From NCBI RefSeq assembly GCF_000151315.2, contig NW_011887303.1:478385-542384 (forward strand): 64,000 bases of DNA, written 5' to 3'. Under the pieces are notes generated by a model that was not told the DNA's origin, ran no database searches, and was given only the letters and a program-made list of their open reading frames with translations. This stretch comes from Capsaspora owczarzaki ATCC 30864. Lineage: Eukaryota; Opisthokonta; Filasterea. Positions 25,575 through 64,000 of the stretch are shown here, one piece after another. The position numbers were made by a program, and so were the translations under genes. Every line of letters begins with the position of its first letter. Positions within the stretch are counted from its first letter, which is position 1.

Positions 25575-30120
<4,546 letters not shown>

Positions 30121-31465
30121 TGTTTGTCAAGTTGTTGTTGTTGTTGCTTGTCTTGTGGTTTGTTTGCGCCTCCAAGCAATACGAAACAAAAAAAAAGGAG
30201 GTCAAGGAAACCAGGACGAGAATCAAGCTCCAGCAGAGACGGGTCCTTGGTTGGGGGGATTTCTGCTCAAACTGTAGAAGAAGGATGGCAACAAGAAAGA
30301 GACAGGGAAAGGAAATTTTGAAAAAGAGCAAAAAAAAAAACCGAAAAATAAAAAATAAAAACAAATAACGGTGAGAGACGTACAACAAATCGAGATCAAG
30401 CGGCAAAGTGCGACATGGAAGCTGGGGTGAGAATGTGACAAAAGGATGACGAGAGCGAACCAACCCCGTGCTCTTTGTTTGTCGGTGTAGGAACAGAGCA
30501 AATGGGGTCGCAATGTGCGATCGTATTCGCATAGGAGTCAGGTAATAATAATAAAAAATAATAAAATAATAAAAAAGAAAAAAAAAAACAAGAGCGTCTG
30601 CTGCGAGCGCTTGCTGCATGACGAACCGAACGAGCAACGAGTACAGTGGTTGGTGTGTGAAACTGAAGGCTGTGCACAGCATGAGCCGTGGAAGAGCGTG
30701 CGAAGAAGCAAAAAAACACAATGTTCAAGTGTCAACAAACAAAGAAAAGAACGGATAAAAACGATCTCGTCATAGGACGACAAAATGCAAAAGTCAACAA
30801 AAGCCTAGGTTGAGGCGAATTCGCAGTGAGGGCGCGTATCGATTTTTATAAGTTTTGGATTTTTTTGATTTTTTTTTTTTTTTTTTTTTGAGATTTGTTT
30901 GTGTTTGGTTTGACTCGCAGCAGCAGCCACAATTTTCTACGGCTGTGCAGGAGGCTCCATCGACTGGACCTGCTCTCACCCGGCAAGCGCCCTGCAGCAC
31001 CATGCACTGCACACACGCGTCTGCAGGCTGTCGAGCGCGAGGCTCCATGAGCAGTGGACGGTAAAATGCCGTGTTCCGCTCTTTGCACACTTGTCCAGGT
31101 TCGCGCGCCCCCGCGACCATCGCCACAGATCTGGGCCGATGCTTCGTCCACCCCCTTGATCACTGCGTCCGTGTCCCACCAACGGACCCCGCACCGCCAT
31201 CGCCATCGCCAACGCTCGCGTCGCTCCACGCAATCCACGCAATCCGGGGCGCGCAACGAAGCGAGCCAGCCTTTTTTTTTTTTTTTTTTTTTTTTTTTGT
31301 CGTGATTTTTTTTTTGGACACTTCTCCTTGGCACTCAAGACCGCTCTCCGCTCGTGCGTGTCTCTCGAGTACTTGCGACAGCTCATTCATGAGTGTTTGT
31401 GGCAGGGTCGGCACTGGCCAATCCATCGCTTGTCGAGCTTCAAAAAAACGAGCGAGAAAACAAAG

Positions 31466-32006: not shown

Positions 32007-35000
32007 TCACAACATTGCACCAATGTCTCGAATAGCACCTTCCGATGCGCCCACCGCAAAGAACTTTTGCAGCTCTGATGCTGTCGGTCGCGCAGTAGGA
32101 ATCAAATCCCAGCAACGCTCAAGCAGAGCATACGCTGCATCTGGGCACGACTCTGGCTTCTGCGGTCGCAAGCCAGCTTCCACTTGAGCAAGCACCTCCC
32201 GGCCTGCAGCCAAGTTGCCATAAGGCGTTGCGCCATACGCATAGACCTCCCCTACAATCAACGTAAATCATTGTACAGTCGTGTGTTAGGCTTCAATGGC
32301 AGACTCGAGCCAAAGGATACCAACCGACTTACAAGCCAAGACACCGTACGCCCACACATCGCTATGAGGAGAAAACCTTCGAAAGTTCAGACACTCGGGC
32401 GCCATCCACTGATAAATGAAATAAGCATAGTGAGAATCGACAACAACACTACCACGCTCCCTCCCTCATCCAACTCAACACACCTTGACAGGCAGGCGAC
32501 CGTTCGTCTCCATATGATAGTAGTCCTTCTCTTCCAGCGCCCTGGACAGACCAAAGTCCGAGATCTTGACAGAGAGGCCTGCTCCGACCAAGCAGTTGCG
32601 AGCAGCGAGGTCGCGATGGACAAAGTTCTGTGTCTCAAGGTATGCCAAGCCTGAGGCCACTTGCTGCAGCGCAAACGACATTTCCGCAGCACTCCAGTAC
32701 ACATTGTCCTTCAGAGAGTTCCGCAACACGCTTCGGAGATCTCCGTACGGCATCAGTTCCAGGATGCACATGTTGGGGTCGCGTTCGAGCAGTGCCGCAA
32801 GCGCCCGCACAATGTTGGGGTGGCTAAATCGGCAGACCATCTGCGCTTCTTCGAAGAAATCTTCGCGAGAGTTCGCCGTGGCATCAGCTGCGAGTTGCTT
32901 GACCGCTACCGCGAGCGTTGATTGATTTCGCTTGGCGCAGAGATAGATGGCATCTTGCGGCACAAACTCAAGGGAGAGCTGCCCTGCTACGACAACACCA
33001 AACGCGCCAGAGCCCAGTGTTTCCCCAAGGACAAGATTGTTTCGAAGCTGGTTGGATATCGCAGTTGGAGTTGTGTGGATGCGAGAAAGTGGCACGGCGT
33101 CGTCGTAGATGGCTTCGTTGGGATTTCTTCGGGCATCGATCGTGTCGTAGTTGGCAGATCCGGACGTTGCAGATGCAGCACTGTTGCTGTATGTTGCAGT
33201 TGCAGTCGCATACAGAGGTTCGCTTGCATCCCCCTTGGACGGGATGGTGACTGTTTGCATGGGCACTGCATATCCTGATTCTGTCGCCTTCAAGAGTTGG
33301 TTTTGATGGCGAGCTCGTTTGCGACGGCGCAACACAATCACAACGAGCAGGATCACCGCCGCGCATCCGACCACCACTCCAATGGCAATGGGCACTGCTG
33401 CTGCAGCGCTGTTAGCGGCCGAGTCTTCGCCATCACGAAGCTCAACCATAATGACATTGCGTGCGTCAAGCTGAGCACCATTCGTCGGGTCTTGCAAAGC
33501 AAGGTATAAGGCTTTGGCCCCTTCAAGCACGTTGTCCTTCAGAATCGTCAGCACAAGCGCGCCCGACGCAGTGCTCTGTCCAGCAGCAAAGTGCACCACG
33601 AGTGGTGATGTGACATGCAAGTCGGAAGTCAAGGATACGCCTTCGTCCGGATGGTCACGATTCAGGAAGGCCGTAAACGGGGCGATGGACGCGTTCGTGC
33701 CAGCGACGACAGTGACGTCCACTGCGCCAAATCGGCCGCCGTTGCGCAGCACAGGAATGTTAAGTGAAGGGGTATCTTCTCGAACCGTATAAACATCGTC
33801 GCCAAGCGGATTGCCGGAGGGTGCAAACTCTATCCAGCCGTTAGGATCGTCGTTGGCTGCAATCGTGACCGTGGCCACAGAGGCATAGGTGAGGTAGGCG
33901 GAGCCCGCAGTGATGCCCGTCAAGAGCACAGTGAACGTCTCGTCCAGCTCGGGAATATCGTCGTCGTCAACCGCAATGCTAATCACAGTGCTCGCTGCAC
34001 CGGCTTCAATCACAACGGGCGCGTCCTGGATGGAGGCGTCAAAGTCTTCACCGCCGGCTGTGCCAGTTCGGACACTGTAGGTGAATGTCACGGCACCAAG
34101 CGCTGAGCCAGTGCGCTCCACCGTGACGAGCGCAACACCAGCGCTCTCCTGAGCAATGAATGTGAGGGAAGTGAAACGGACGACGCCGTCCACGGCGTTG
34201 CTGGCCTCGATGGCACATGGAATGACAGAAGGGGCGTCAGCATCGAGGGTCGCCAGAGATCCCGAGCTGGGACTCAGAACAATGTCGAATAGACGAACAG
34301 GGGCTTGAGCGGCAACGACGTTGAAAGAGTTGGATGTCTGCGACGTCTGGCCAGCCGCAAAGCTCACAGTCCGCACCACTTGATTGTTAAAGTCAGCGGC
34401 AGTCACCGGTGTTGTGAATTGCAAGGTGGCATCGCCTGTCACAGTTCCGAATGTGCCGAAATAGCGCGCAACCTCTGCAGTGAAAGTTGAGCCACCAGTG
34501 ACGAGGAACCGTGCACTGCCATCAGCCGACTTGGTCAACGTTGGAGTGACAAAGCCAATGGTGCCGTAGGGTTTGTCGTTCTTGTTAATGGTCACTGTGA
34601 TTGTCGACTGTGCACCCAAGGTCGCACCGCCAGTGGGGCTGGACAGGGTAACAGCGAACGTCTCGTCCAGTTCCGGAAGCGAATCCGCACGAATGACGAC
34701 CTGAATGACCGCACTCGAGTGGCCCTGAAGCAGCGTCACAGTGCCTGCGCCTTCCACAAAGTCCAGTCCAGCTTGGGCATTGACGTTGTGGTCGGAGCCG
34801 GTGATGGAGGTCGCCCAGGCAAACGTAACGTCGCCAAACAGGCCTGCCGTTCGAGTAATGGTAATGGACACGCTGCTGTCAGAAGCGGGCTCGTCAACCG
34901 CCAATGTGGCAGCGTCAAATGCCAAAACGCCATGCGGGCTGTCGCTTTCCGCAATTGTCACCAGAACGTTGGAAGCAGTCGAGTCAACCGCACCGCCGCC

Positions 35001-37455
35001 GCTGACAATCTCGAGGCGAACGCCAAAGACCTCGGCGAGTTCAGGAATGGTGTCATCCAGGATGGCAACAAGAGCGTTCTTGGTCAGGATTCCAGCGGTA
35101 AACTCGACATCCACAGGTGTCGAAGCGAAATCCAAGTCGATGGTGGCCACAGGTGTGCCAGTTGACGTGTTGAATGCGACAGCGTACGGAGTGACGCGGA
35201 CAGTGACAGTGCCAACGCTACCACGAGCACGAGTGATGGTGAGACTGGCCGATGATGGTTCAGGCCAAGAAGACGCAGTATTAGCAATGCTGAACAGACC
35301 GTAGGGGTAGTCATGTTCGGGCACTGCAACGACCGACGATCCGTAGTAGCCGATCGGAGTCGCTTCGCCAAGAGTCACAGCGGTCGCAGCAGTGATGGTG
35401 TACGTCAGCGTTGAAGGGACAGTCGGAGTACCCATGTTTGGCACTGTGATGGAAACCGCAAAAGTTTGCTGGCCTGCGGGAATTGTCGCAACGAATGTGG
35501 TGGAACTGGCCACAGTGGAGGTCACGGAAAACGTGATATCGACGGCCGAGGCATAGGAAACGGCGCTGAAACGCTCCAACGTGATTGAGAACTCCGGGTT
35601 GGCCATGACGTTGCTCAAGCTGATCTGACGGGAGCCAGCGGACACGCCGACCGTGCCAAACTGCGACTGGCTGGCTTCAATCACGATCTGAGACCTGTTA
35701 AAGTGGTCGTCCAATGCCATGTTGACGGGGCTGGCAAGTTGAATGTCGATCGTTTCTTGAGCCAACGCGCTGCCGCTTGCAGCAAGGTTCAGTGTGATGG
35801 TCTGCTGATGCACTGTCGAAGAAAACTGCAGCGGTGCCGAAGAAACAGCAGTCAAAGATGCCGAGCTGATGGAAAATTGAACAGTCGCATCAACCTGGAC
35901 TGGAGCCTCAACAACCAGGGAGATTGTGCTCGTGCCTGACTCGGGTCGACGAACCACCAGGAAGCGAGACGACACATCAAACGCAACGCGACCATCAGCC
36001 GCGCACTCCAAACCATTGCCCAAAAAGCCAGGCTTGCAGGCGCACGAGTAGTTTCCAGGGGTGTTTGTGCATAGGGCGTCACTGCTGCACGGGAACGGGA
36101 TGCCATTGCACTCATTCACGTCGTCGCAGTGCGTTCCGTTGCCGGAAAAGCCAGCCTTGCAGGTGCAAGTAAACGAGCCAATAGTGTCGGCACAAGTGGC
36201 ATTCGCAGCGCAGTTGTGCATTCCAGTCGTGCACTCGTTGATGTTGATGCAAGATTTGGCGTCAGGCTGCAGCTGGTATCCACTGTTGCACGAGCAAGCG
36301 TAGGACCCAGGCAGATTGGTGCAAGTGTGCTGGCAGCCGCCGTTGGCGCTGCTGCACTCGTTGTTGTCGAGACAGCCGGTTTCGCCTTTGCCATCGCCGT
36401 TTTTCGTGTAGCCAGTGAGGCAGCTACAGTCGTACGATCCAGGGGTGTTGAGACAAGTTTGGTTGCAGCCGCCGTTCAAGTTGTTGCACTCGTTTGTATC
36501 AACGCATCTGAGAGTTGTAGCTGTAGGTGCCCATGCGCCTGTTGTGCTGCAAGTGATGTTTGGAGAGCCTGCAGAGATTGAGTAGCCAGTATTGCACTGG
36601 TAGGTGCAAGTGGAGTTGGCGCTGACAGAGCTGCATTGGCTTTTGGTGGTGTTGGTCGGCGCAGCTGGAGCGGTCGGGCAGGAAACGAGCGTGTTGCAAC
36701 TGGCACCCGTGTAGCCAGGAGTGCAAACCTTAGTGCCTGTTGATGAGCAAGTGTAATAGCCACCGTCATTGGGTATGCAATACACACATGAACCAGAGCC
36801 GCTCGGATAGTAGTTGGTGGCGCAAGTGGAGCAGGACGGAGTGCCAGTGTAGCCTGATTTGCAAGCCGTGCAAGCGCCAGACACGAGATCGCAGGTACTA
36901 CAGTTTCCAGTGGAGGTGGTGCAGAACGTGTCGCACGTCGGCCCGTAATAGTTGGCTTGGCAAATAACACGATACGCAAACTTGATCCAATATGCAGAAG
37001 CGAAAGGATTATTGACAGTAATGGGAATGTAAGCAGCAGAAGAGCCCGCTGTGTAGGTTTGGACGATGGAGCCCAGAATCTGGTTTGACAAAAAGTCTGC
37101 GTCGTAGAATTCCAACTCGAGTTTGAATGAGCCCTGTAAGATCCGAAACAGCAATGGTGAGATTTCGCCGCGACCAGACTGTTTTTAGAATTGATTACTC
37201 ACAGGGTAATTGTTGACCTGGCTGGTCGTGAAGTATTGTTCCCAGACTGGATTGTTGTCGTCTTGCAGTTTGGCAACTGAGCCAGAGTACTCAGTGGTTC
37301 GAAAAACTGTCGCAAGCGGTGGCTCCCGAACTGTCGTCGCACGCAGGTCCATTGAAGGACGCTGAATCGTAATACAAGCCGATCTTTGCTGGGCCGGCAT
37401 TGACGTTCACAGCACAAAGCACCGCCAGCAATGCGGTGATTAGCGTAGATCTCAT
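32007..37455 (-). CDS. Receptor tyrosine kinase with C2-like, EGF, sushi and Calx-beta repeats
   Basis: Membrane receptor kinase. The visible order is: signal peptide ([20 protein letters not shown]), C2-like segment (exon ending 37203, then [19 protein letters not shown]), cysteine-rich EGF/laminin-like repeats, one sushi domain, and about five EGF modules with calcium-binding NxC signatures ([31 protein letters not shown]). Then come roughly seven Calx-beta repeats with the IPELDETF motif, a transmembrane helix ([20 protein letters not shown]) with an RRRKR stop, and a kinase with [36 protein letters not shown] and WMAPE. Exons: signal part from 37455, C2 exon to 37203, 37133-32484, 32408-32333, 32251-32007. 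The signal peptide is in a different frame from the C2-like exon; a 49-nt intron (37410-37362) or a base error could explain it. The ligand is unknown. Confidence 0.9.
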
Positions 37456-60522: not shown

Positions 60523-63316
60523 ATGCTGTCGTACCAGAGCATGAGCGCGAAACAGCGGGAGTTGTACGACAAAGTCAAGAATGCCAGTCAATGGTTCGGG
60601 TACGAAAAGGCCGGAAATATTGGAAATAAATTGCGACAACATGTGTACTGATGAAAAGGAGGATAGACTGCCATACAATCAAATTGACGATGCCGGCGCA
60701 CAGGCGATTGCTGAGGGACTCAAAAGCAATTCGAAGGTGACGGGACTCTCGTAAGTCATCTCGCTTCGAGTGATGAGTGTGAATGGGTGGCTTCGGCAGA
60801 GTGGCTCACTATGGGAGGGGATGGACAGTCTGTGGAGCAACCAAATTGGTGATGCTGGAGCGCGGGTGATTGCTGAGACACTCAAAGTCAATATGACGAT
60901 AACTGTACTCGAGTAGGTCGTCTCACTTTGACAAGTGCATGTGAGTGGGCGATCTAGTAGAGGGCATTACGAGTGCTCACTGATGGACGGACAGTCTGAA
61001 CAACAATCAGATTGGTGATGCTGGGGCACAAGCGATTGCTGAGACACTCAAAGTGACCACGACGTTGATCAAGATCGAGTAAGGGGTGTCACTTTCCCTC
61101 AACAGGGTGCATTTAGAGTGCTCATTGATGGAGGGGATGTACAGTCTGAATTGGAATCAGATTGGCGATGCTGGAGCACAGGCGATTGCTGAAGCGCTCA
61201 AAGTCAACACAACAGTCACTAACCTCGGGTAAGTCATCTCACTTTGACGTGAGTCGATGATCCAGCAGAGGTGTTCATAGTGCTTACTAATGACTGAACA
61301 GTTTGTACAATAATAAGCTTGGCGATGCTGGAGCGACGGCGATGGCTGAGATGCTCAAAGTGAACAAGATGCTGACATCGCTCGTGTAAGGCATCTCACA
61401 TTAACTGATATTTGTAAATGGTGATGTCAGCAATGACATTTAGCGTGGAGGAGATGGACAGTTTGGGCAACAATCAGATTGGCGACGCTGGAGCGAACGC
61501 AATTGCCGAGTCACTCAAAGTGAACATGTCCTTGCAAGCGCTCGAGTGAGTCACATCACTTTTGCTGGCGCTTGTCAGTGGAAGTCTTTTCAACAAATGG
61601 TACTCACAGTGCTCATTGATGGAGCAATTTGACAGTTTGCGCACGATTGGCAACGCTGGAGCGCAGGGAATGACTGAAGTACTCCAAATGAACACGACCT
61701 CAGGTGAGGCATAGTCACTGATGCATGTGAGTGGGTAGCAGAGGGTACTCAAAATGCTCATTGAATGGAACGGACCGACAGTCTGCGTCAAATTGGCGAC
61801 GCAGAAGCGCAGGCCATTGCTGAGGCACTCAAAGTGAACAAGACCTTGACTTATCTCAGGTAATCCATCTCACTTTGACGAACGCGTGCGAGTGGGGATT
61901 GTAGCAGAGGGCATTTAGAAGGCTCACCGATGGAAGGGACGGACAGTCTGGACTTGGGGTATATTGGCGAGGCTGGAGCAAATGCGATCGCTGAGTTACT
62001 CCAAGTGAACTCGACATTGTCGCGTCTCAAGTAAGTCATCACACTTTCAACGATGCTTGTGTATGTGCGATCCAGTAAAACGAATTCAGGATGCTCACGA
62101 ATGGAGAGAATGGACAGCCTCAAGCAGAATCAGATTGGTGATGCTGGAGCGCATGCAATCGCTGAAGCACTCAAGGTCAACACGAGGCTGACACATCTTG
62201 GGTAAAGCATCTCACTTTACAGATGCTTGTGAGTGGATGATTCAGCAGGGGGCATTTCAATGCTTACTGATGGATGTACAGTCTGAGTGAGAATGAGATT
62301 GGCAATGCGGGAGCGCAGGCGATTGCTGAGGCACTCAAGGTGAACTCGACGCTGACTTGGCTCTTGTAAGGCAGCTATCCCTCATAGTTCCACTTGAGCT
62401 AACTGATGGATGGAACGCACAGTTGGGACGACAATCTGATTGGCGATGCTGGAGCCCAGGCGATTGCCGAAGCGTTCAAGGTGAACCCGAAGCTGAGGGA
62501 TATTTTGTATGATGTCGTGCACTTTGACTTTGAGCCAGGGTGAGCCATACATCCTGCTTACTCGTTGCATTGCTCAACAGTCTAGCGCGGAATTGCATTA
62601 GCAATGTTTGTTCGCAAGCAATCAGAAAACGCACAGACACCGGCCAAAAGGGTCCTACGTAAGCTAAGTTGTCCTTGCCAAACGAAGCCATTGAAGCTCA
62701 CGCGAGCTGCTTCCAACCAATAAAGTGTGCCTTCCGATTGCTCATTTATGGTGCTTGTTCGTTGCGCAGCATTTACGACCAGGTTAACCCTCGTGCATTC
62801 TCCTTACTTTCACGCGTAGCAACCGCTGACGACCTTCAGACCGTGTTTTGCTTGCTGACCAGCGGACCGGAGCTGAAAGATCAGTCCACATTTCTGCCAG
62901 CATTACCAGCCGAGATCGCAGACATCATTATGGACGAAGCGCAACACTGGCAAGGCGTACAGCATACCAAACGAGACCCGTACGATGACCGTCCTGTCAA
63001 GGTCACAGTGCCTCAAAGCATCCATGGTAATTCGACCCGTGTGAAAGCAATTCAAGTGGTTCGGGACACGAAGAATCTTTACTACCGCATCGGTGACAAC
63101 GTCTTTGACTTGATTGTTCGAGATGAGCAAGGTGCTGTTCAATATGAATACGCGGCGAAAGCGACGTTTGTCAATTCTACGCTCGTGTCCGCGACGCTCT
63201 GGCCAGCGAGTACTCCTATCATCAGGCAAATCCGCGTGGGTTGGCAAGTTCAGGTTCAACCCAGTGAGTCTGCCCGAGATGTGCTGTTTGAATCGCTCGT
63301 TGTTAGATGTTTGTAG
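60523..63316 (+). CDS. Leucine-rich-repeat protein (ribonuclease-inhibitor/NLRC3-type), one repeat per 84-nt exon
   Basis: Exon 60523-60599 (MLSYQSMSAKQRELYDKVK...) is followed by LRR exons starting at 60667, 60829, 60995, 61145, 61302, 61462, 61782, 61947, 62118, 62282 and 62423. Nine are exactly 84 nt and encode 28-residue repeats of the type NQIGDAGAQAIAEALKVNTT; the one at 61782 is 78 nt and the last, 62423-62539, is 117 nt. Every junction is phase 2. The exon-like unit at 61636-61703 is 68 nt and would break the frame, so I leave it out. Two C-terminal exons follow, 62581-62658 and 62770-63316, the latter with LPALPAEIADIIMDEAQHW and a domain I do not recognise. Binding of another protein by the LRR horseshoe is the family expectation. 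No NACHT or kinase domain is present. If expression fails it could be a pseudogene. Confidence 0.8.
60667..62539 (+). repeat. Tandem array of LRR exon-plus-intron units (about 141-174 bp period)
   Basis: Unit starts are spaced 162, 166, 150, 157, 160, 174, 146, 165, 171, 164 and 141 bp. Not only the 84-nt exons but also the introns resemble each other: most begin GTAAGTCATCTCAC-like and end GCTCACTGATGGA...GACAG-like. The array therefore arose by duplicating whole genomic units. Confidence 0.88.
61636..61703 (+). pseudogene. Decayed LRR exon within the array
   Basis: Between acceptor GACAG and donor CAG/GTGAGG there are 68 nt, not 84. The repeat reads LRTIGNAGAQGMTEVLQMNT, has lost the residues that normally precede IG, and lacks the LTxL end. 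Its length is not a multiple of three, so including it shifts every later exon; skipping it joins 61545 to 61782 in phase. Confidence 0.7.
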
Positions 63317-63764: not shown

Positions 63765-64000
63765 CAATCGACGTACCTTTGCACTGACTCTGACACTACG
63801 CTATCCCTCTCAGCTGACCAACTGGCCGCAATTATCGCTCAAGCCATTGCGCTGCATCAGTCCTCCATCCAACCCGTTGTTGTTGCTCCCTCTGTCCCTC
63901 CGCCTCTGCGTCCTCAGCTCACCCTGCCGGAATTCTTCACTGGCAAGGATCCTTCCAAGACCAGAGACTTTCTGCTTCAGGTCAGGCGCTATGTCGGCAA
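63765..64000 (+). mobile_element. Ty3/gypsy-like retroelement, start of gag, cut by window end
   Basis: An open frame from 63765 to the window edge reads SADQLAAIIAQAIALHQ, then RPQLTLPEFFTGKDPS and KTRDFLLQVRRYVG. The P-x-F-x-G ... F-L-x-x-x-x-x-Y pattern is typical of gag capsid starts in Ty3/gypsy retrotransposons. No ATG is seen between the preceding TGA (63762) and the conserved part, so the true start, or a frameshift, is unresolved. Protease, reverse transcriptase and integrase would lie beyond the window. The element is in the same orientation as the LRR gene, 450 bp after its stop. Confidence 0.65.

Follow-up and report, generated by a model that had tools for sequence, protein, structure and literature searches.

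A leucine-rich repeat gene of Capsaspora owczarzaki composed of 84-nt exon modules, a probable member of a diversified recognition repertoire with two kinds of C-terminal output

The window analyzed here is a stretch of 64,000 nt from Capsaspora owczarzaki ATCC 30864 (assembly GCF_000151315.2, contig NW_011887303.1, positions 478,385 to 542,384 of the forward strand), and the coordinates of its genes are given as positions within it. A leucine-rich repeat (LRR) gene is located at 60523-63316 on the plus strand and consists of exon 1, twelve LRR units, an exon of 78 nt and a final one:

60523..60599, plus strand, exon 1: 77 nt, ends in phase 2; MLSYQSMSAKQRELYDKVKNASQWF-; 145 similar places genome-wide
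60667..60750, plus strand, LRR unit 1: 84 nt, phase 2-2
60829..60912, plus strand, LRR unit 2: 84 nt
60995..61078, plus strand, LRR unit 3: 84 nt
61145..61228, plus strand, LRR unit 4: 84 nt
61302..61385, plus strand, LRR unit 5: 84 nt; in the next intron the paralog L010 diverges from the window gene
61462..61545, plus strand, LRR unit 6: 84 nt
61636..61703, plus strand, LRR unit 7, damaged: 68 nt (strong donor) or 78 nt (weak donor)
61782..61859, plus strand, LRR unit 8: 78 nt, in frame
61947..62030, plus strand, LRR unit 9: 84 nt
62118..62201, plus strand, LRR unit 10: 84 nt
62282..62365, plus strand, LRR unit 11: 84 nt
62423..62506, plus strand, LRR unit 12: 84 nt
62581..62658, plus strand, degenerate LRR-like final module: 78 nt, phase 2-2
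62770..63316, plus strand, C-terminal exon: 547 nt, TAG stop; a domain of about 181 amino acids (aa), family unassigned, here named CTD

Ten of the twelve LRR units are exactly 84 nt long, one more than an earlier note on this DNA had counted; one of the other two has 78 nt and one is damaged. The same note had placed the end of the gene at 62658, which leaves out the last exon (62770-63316) and the C-terminal domain that it adds. The introns measure 57-111 nt, are of the GT-AG type and lie in phase 2, with damaged unit 7 as the exception, so that the claim of phase 2 at every junction holds everywhere but there. The strong donor of unit 7 (GTGAGG) gives a 68-nt exon and a frameshift; a weak in-frame donor (GTCACT) gives 78 nt and a frame of 565 aa from ATG to TAG. 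The introns were also said to be alike, and they are homologous: the mean identity of their interiors was 57.2% (55 pairs) vs 49.6% in 40 dinucleotide shuffles (standard deviation 0.5, maximum 50.8). In Pfam, four stretches in units 3-6 matched LRR_6 (PF13516, the ribonuclease inhibitor-like LRR) with an E value of 1.7e-20. The gene lacks a kinase domain and ends in the CTD.

Three further features were observed in the window. On the minus strand, two adjacent frames at 25578-30126 with FERM, tyrosine kinase and focal-adhesion-targeting domains represent a FAK-like gene, and a long frame at 32478-37184 with EGF, Calx-beta and tyrosine kinase domains represents a receptor tyrosine kinase. Both are in keeping with a filasterean genome. 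Just downstream of the LRR gene, an open frame at 63800-64000 on the plus strand looks like the beginning of a gag protein of a retrotransposon.

Units were called in the window and in 32 loci of the same genome (L009-L040), which were picked for their similarity and are not a random sample; L001-L008 were left out of the count, being short and mostly overlapping other loci. The calls comprised 362 units (at least one of them spurious, given two overlapping calls in L019), of which 328 were exactly 84 nt long, 25 were 75, 78, 81 or 87 nt long, eight had other lengths and one was without a length. This count is biased toward 84 nt, because the exon caller prefers lengths of about 84 nt and multiples of three; unit 7 of the window gene was scored by it as 78 nt. 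None of the 328 84-nt exons contained an in-frame stop, but when they were read in the two alternative frames 278 and 301 did contain a stop. Each module encodes one 28-aa LRR in a frame-keeping exon, and the exons are uniform in length, in tandem and bounded by phase 2 on both sides, window unit 7 being the exception. The family introns between units are homologous, in phase 2 and mostly 55-100 nt long.

One locus, L032, adds a second level of order: its 17 units, in an array that begins at the edge of the examined stretch (first 2.7 kb, reverse complement), alternate strictly between two exon types and two intron types (64-65 and 77-84 nt), with exons about 75% alike within a type and 55% between types. 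The alternation resembles the A/B repeat of ribonuclease inhibitor, but with one exon per repeat. The arrays might in principle have arisen by separate insertions of introns at one point of each LRR in an intronless array, for which the sole support is that phase 2 is common at the LRR exons of other lineages (excerpts of PMC6564038 and PMC11378527). Against such insertions, the introns are homologous within and between loci, and in L032 they follow the exon types. With intron homology between units visible in the arrays themselves, this origin was rejected as extremely improbable.

Regarding the residues of the module, variety was highest at positions 26, 2 and 3 (3.97, 3.81 and 3.74 bits); codon 28, which the intron splits, was also mixed. 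In the general LRR pattern, LxxLxLxxN marks the beta strand of the concave face, and by this pattern we take positions 2, 3 and 26 to lie on the concave face of one beta strand. The intron sits in the middle of the strand, as placed by the general pattern, and halves the concave beta strand of every repeat; residues 26 and most of 28 are therefore encoded by one exon, and the following exon supplies residues 2 and 3.

Substitution rates at these positions were estimated in disjoint pairs drawn from 305 distinct 84-nt exons, with bootstrap intervals. For the 49 pairs at a distance of up to 0.10, the ratio of dN at positions 2, 3 and 26 to dS at all sites was 3.05 (1.87-5.71), and dN/dS at the other positions was 0.49; the corresponding values were 2.10 (1.46-2.98) and 0.39 for the 66 pairs at up to 0.15, and 1.81 (1.45-2.25) and 0.33 for the 92 pairs at up to 0.20. 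The three positions were chosen after the entropy table had been seen, though they are concave by the known LRR pattern, and the units are non-independent owing to recombination. With dS taken from those three codons only, the ratios were 4.08, 1.46 and 0.96 at the same three limits, and the wider set of positions 2, 3, 25 and 26 gave 1.99 at a distance of up to 0.15. When triplets of positions were drawn at random 2000 times, 1, 0 and 0 of the draws attained the value of the concave set. Homologous flanking introns served as a second yardstick (63 pairs, 20 of them with identical exons): the nonsynonymous rate at positions 2, 3 and 26 was 3.20 times the intron rate (95% bootstrap interval 2.30-4.46) and 2.57 times the synonymous rate (1.84-3.83), the remaining positions evolved at 0.54 of the intron rate (0.36-0.78), and the ratio of silent to intron rate was 1.24 (0.81-1.73). 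For single pairs of loci, exons changed faster than introns between the window gene and L009 (15/839 vs 4/726); no exon excess was seen for L016/L017 (18/672 vs 15/514), the window gene and L010 (9/420 vs 8/325), L035/L037 (19/499 vs 18/395) or L021/L040 (0/588 vs 2/483). A test of dN/dS at the concave-face residues had been proposed in the earlier note, and it shows that the hypervariable positions, concave by prediction, carry an excess of amino-acid change, with the scaffold around them constrained.

These rates also bear on the possibility that the family is mostly non-functional repetitive DNA, spread by duplication and showing mutational patterns. Damaged units occur in the window gene and in L043, the lengths of eight of the 362 units are not a multiple of three and one unit is without a length (some of these being last units and perhaps miscalled), and stretches of N adjoin some arrays, all of which would fit such decay. 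It is nevertheless very unlikely, since the 84-nt exons are free of in-frame stops (0 of 328), scaffold codons evolve at 0.54 of the intron rate and concave codons above it, and 100 of the 101 longest CTD matches contain no internal stop. A pure pseudogene family was rejected on the stop-free 84-nt exons and the pattern of codon constraint.

Near-identical copies of arrays differ by whole modules, with the joins lying in homologous introns; close relatives are mosaics of one another's units. L021 and L040, about 27 kb apart in inverted orientation on contig C13, show 0/588 exon and 2/483 intron substitutions in seven matched units, and L021 carries one additional unit, an exon and an intron totaling 169 nt, whose two joins fall within homologous introns and leave the frame intact. 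L042 and L043, inverted on C8, are near 100% identical in their common units; nine units were found in L042 and 13 in L043, where a 252-nt gap may conceal one more. The distance from exon 1 to the CTD is 819 nt longer in L043, which together with the unit counts indicates that about five units were added there. The extra units are a tandem repeat of adjacent units, and one repeated exon has 80 nt and is broken in frame. That modules are gained or lost without harm to the frame is thus borne out by the pair on C13 and fails for one repeated exon of the pair on C8. Repeat number is not fixed among paralogs either: complete arrays among the paralogs of the window gene hold 7 to 16 units (L010 and L040 being incomplete).

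When the units of 13 paralogs were ordered by their best match to the window gene, part of the assignments having an identity of just 62-75%, nine of the 13 started with units 1-2; among the 11 with a complete end, ten finished 10-11-12 and L035 finished 8-11-12, and the middle was variable. L010 is 95.6% identical to the window gene as far as the fifth intron and then diverges. Units with a match of at least 93% in another array numbered 120 (both members of a pair counted), and 30 of them have a neighbor less than 85% alike. Compared with shuffled orders, neighboring units showed a greater likeness to each other in 11 of the 32 array blocks at p of about 0.02 or below and in 13 at 0.036, and not in the rest. 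Between the five kinase loci and the other arrays, the best unit match was 88% and no near-identical unit was shared; for 16 of the 37 kinase-class units the nearest exon lay outside the class. Recent exchange between kinase and CTD classes is unsupported, because the best match between units of the two is 88%.

The arrangement of these copies on the contigs was noted separately. Closely alike LRR genes occur as inverted pairs, 20-180 kb apart, on C13 (454-482 kb), C8 (470-493 kb), C12 (44-96 kb) and C4 (655-832 kb); the pairs include L021/L040, L042/L043 and L016/L017, and L035/L037 on C14 are in direct orientation. The inverted pairs are possibly large palindromes or an effect of assembly.

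Instead of germline change, the main use of the design could be the generation of isoforms by combinatorial exon skipping in RNA. Modular phase-2 exons allow it, and the window gene remains open from ATG to TAG (539 aa) if unit 7 is skipped. Excerpts of the literature add that exon skipping occurs in Capsaspora as a regulated process, with an enrichment in kinase genes and with preservation of the frame by about 60% of the exons so regulated (PMC3870316), and that alternative splicing affects the LRR exons of human NLR genes (PMC6642158). The same excerpt of PMC3870316, however, counts only 191 cassette exons with less than 95% inclusion in at least one stage and 39 with less than 85%, few against hundreds of LRR exons, and its account of skipping does not name LRR exons; we consider skipping quite unlikely as the main use.

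The genome comprises 27.46 Mb (29 contigs). Two published actin primers of Capsaspora (PMC9170242) match it exactly with their 3' ends, the promoter end at C1:2241274 and the terminator end roughly 1.4 kb from it, and an actin reading frame occupies the interval; two coYki sequences of that publication, a 90-nt arm and a 20-nt primer, gave no match. The size of the family was assessed in this genome. A search with a four-LRR protein gave at least 189 matches, a lower bound because 150 of 1263 candidates were scored. Regarding the CTD, all 132 candidates were scored and 129 matched genome-wide, and the 101 longest matches (at least 133 residues) formed the set used below. Exon 1 gave 146 matches at E values up to 10, of which 145 were kept after removal of the weakest; the weak tail may include chance matches. 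The paralogous arrays for which a genome search had been suggested are therefore abundant, with 145 exon-1 places and 129 CTD matches. For 73 of the 101 longest CTD matches, an exon-1 match lies upstream on the same strand at 0.7-4.5 kb (72 exon-1 places used). A kinase of the RLK/Pelle type lies within 7.5 kb on the same strand of 37 of the 73 CTD-less exon-1 places vs one of the 72 CTD-linked ones, which leaves 36 CTD-less places without an assigned output; this comparison used 75 kinase places whose E values were no worse than about 2e-53, from a search that scored 134 of 277 candidates, and a fragment belonging to an already-counted gene was dropped.

For the kinase of L017, the best PDB matches were 2qkw (titled 'Protein kinase', which we take to be Pto), BRI1, FERONIA and IRAK4, and among the 60 best chains those specifically named were all plant receptor-like or related kinases or IRAKs, some rows being generic. 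PF07714 and PF00069 were found in L015 and L017. A coiled-coil-like stretch precedes the kinase in L017, L018 and L026, and L015 terminates in a RING finger. The kinase of L018 reads NFG at the place where kinases usually read DFG, and on this motif some of the LRR-kinases may be inactive.

The CTD had no relative above threshold in Pfam or in the PDB sequences, and its identification as a known domain was rejected on these searches. In the viral and prokaryote collections, its peptide pattern matched in 30 and 187 stretches, respectively, none of which encodes a relative. A weak lead is DUF7730, with three of 23 CTD members and a best E value of 0.042. ROC-COR was absent from the scanned proteins (parts of the window gene, kinase paralogs and 23 CTDs). 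NACHT, CARD and PYD were not found in exon 1 plus unit 1, units 3-6 or the CTD of the window gene, nor was NACHT found in the 23 CTDs scanned.

The CTD raises the possibility that the LRR-CTD genes encode substrate adaptors of a ubiquitin ligase, similar to F-box/LRR proteins, in which the first half of the CTD would dock the ligase and the LRRs would select rapidly changing substrates, the diversity then reflecting either the turnover of proteins or a conflict, be it with transposons or with guests inside the cell. The conserved stretch LPALPAEIA-IMDEA in the alignment of the CTD family fits this, as the region appears to us F-box-like, and a structure model from the window sequence alone places four helices before strands, at low confidence. 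The mean pLDDT of that model was 38.1, however, which makes it unusable for a fold search, no F-box family was found in Pfam at E values up to 0.5 in 23 CTD members scanned, and the members ending in a kinase do not fit. We regard the adaptor function as unlikely.

Our preferred reading, to which we assign a probability of roughly 0.65 from the sequences, is that the gene is a member of a cytosolic, germline-diversified LRR recognition repertoire with a kinase or CTD output. The family plan runs from a short first exon through a variable array of one-LRR modules to an output of at least two kinds, either the CTD, as in the window gene, or the RLK/Pelle-type kinase, with a coiled-coil-like stretch ahead of the kinase in several members. 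The proteins are probably cytosolic, no signal peptide or membrane segment having been found by hydropathy in the 539-aa protein of the window gene. Unequal homologous crossing-over in the introns would produce new orders of modules and new strand surfaces, and recognition, for example of microbes in the snail host or of self and non-self during aggregation, would be passed on via the kinase or the CTD. A broken module such as unit 7 may be tolerable, because its omission preserves the frame. Some members of the family may be dying, as unit 7 of the window gene is damaged and one L043 unit of 80 nt is broken in frame.

Arrays of this design are known elsewhere, here cited from excerpts of the respective papers. 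Tetrahymena has tandem arrays of 90-nt phase-2 LRR exons (PMC6564038), alike in that many tandem LRR exons have one exact length and nearly all are in phase 2, with exon-intron repeat units, recent expansions and varied gene structures. They differ in being of 90 nt and from a ciliate, whereas the Capsaspora exons measure 84 nt, not 90, and go with compact introns, a first exon shared across the family and two kinds of output; the excerpt of PMC6564038 mentions no common kinase or CTD output, and it states that such uniformity is known from no other eukaryote and suggests that the 90-bp class evolved once. The brown algal ROCO genes (PMC11378527, in excerpt) likewise have one LRR per phase-2 exon, shuffling and positive selection at some LRR residues, and an immune role was proposed there; they differ in their 72-nt exons and their ROC-COR GTPase core, compared with 84 nt in Capsaspora and the scanned proteins in which ROC-COR was not found. 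The likeness to vertebrate NLR genes that had been suggested for this gene holds for the exon design, as in NOD/NLRC genes a single 28-aa LRR occupies each frame-keeping exon and is removable by splicing (PMC6642158, in excerpt). It does not extend to the domains, with NACHT, CARD and PYD not found in the scanned parts of the window gene, or to the near-identical copies in Capsaspora that vary in module number. Regarding the kinases, choanoflagellates are reported in the excerpt of PMC6040629 to show no evidence of IRAK and to possess LRR/TIR-kinase proteins; by description, Capsaspora is likewise a relative of animals in which LRRs and a kinase are directly coupled, but within the Capsaspora family only paralogs of the window gene carry the kinase. 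No report of LRR exon arrays in Capsaspora was found among the literature matches listed, which does not prove that none exists. Exon-per-LRR arrays in phase 2 are thus known from other organisms, and the Capsaspora case with two outputs is apparently undescribed.

A more far-reaching reading, which we put forward tentatively and at somewhat less than even odds, is that of an independently evolved, fast-changing intracellular repertoire of 100-150 genes. Its homologous introns would serve as recombination hinges that divide the binding strand midway. Each crossover would thereby swap whole repeats and also remake a hybrid concave surface, and the output would be an IRAK/RLK-type kinase or a lineage-specific domain. 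Such an immune- or allorecognition-like system would stand near the base of the animal lineage and do without NACHT.

Kinases of the RLK/IRAK type act in Toll signaling in animals and in LRR receptors in plants. If the preferred reading is true, a close protist relative of animals would possess its own germline-diversified LRR repertoire tied to a kinase of this type, and a further lineage would be added to those with arrays of uniform LRR exons in phase 2. Through the near-identical pairs with their whole-module differences, the rate and place of intron recombination would become directly measurable. Capsaspora is transfectable and gene-editable, according to an excerpt of PMC9170242, and would then be a tractable system for the origin of recognition repertoires.
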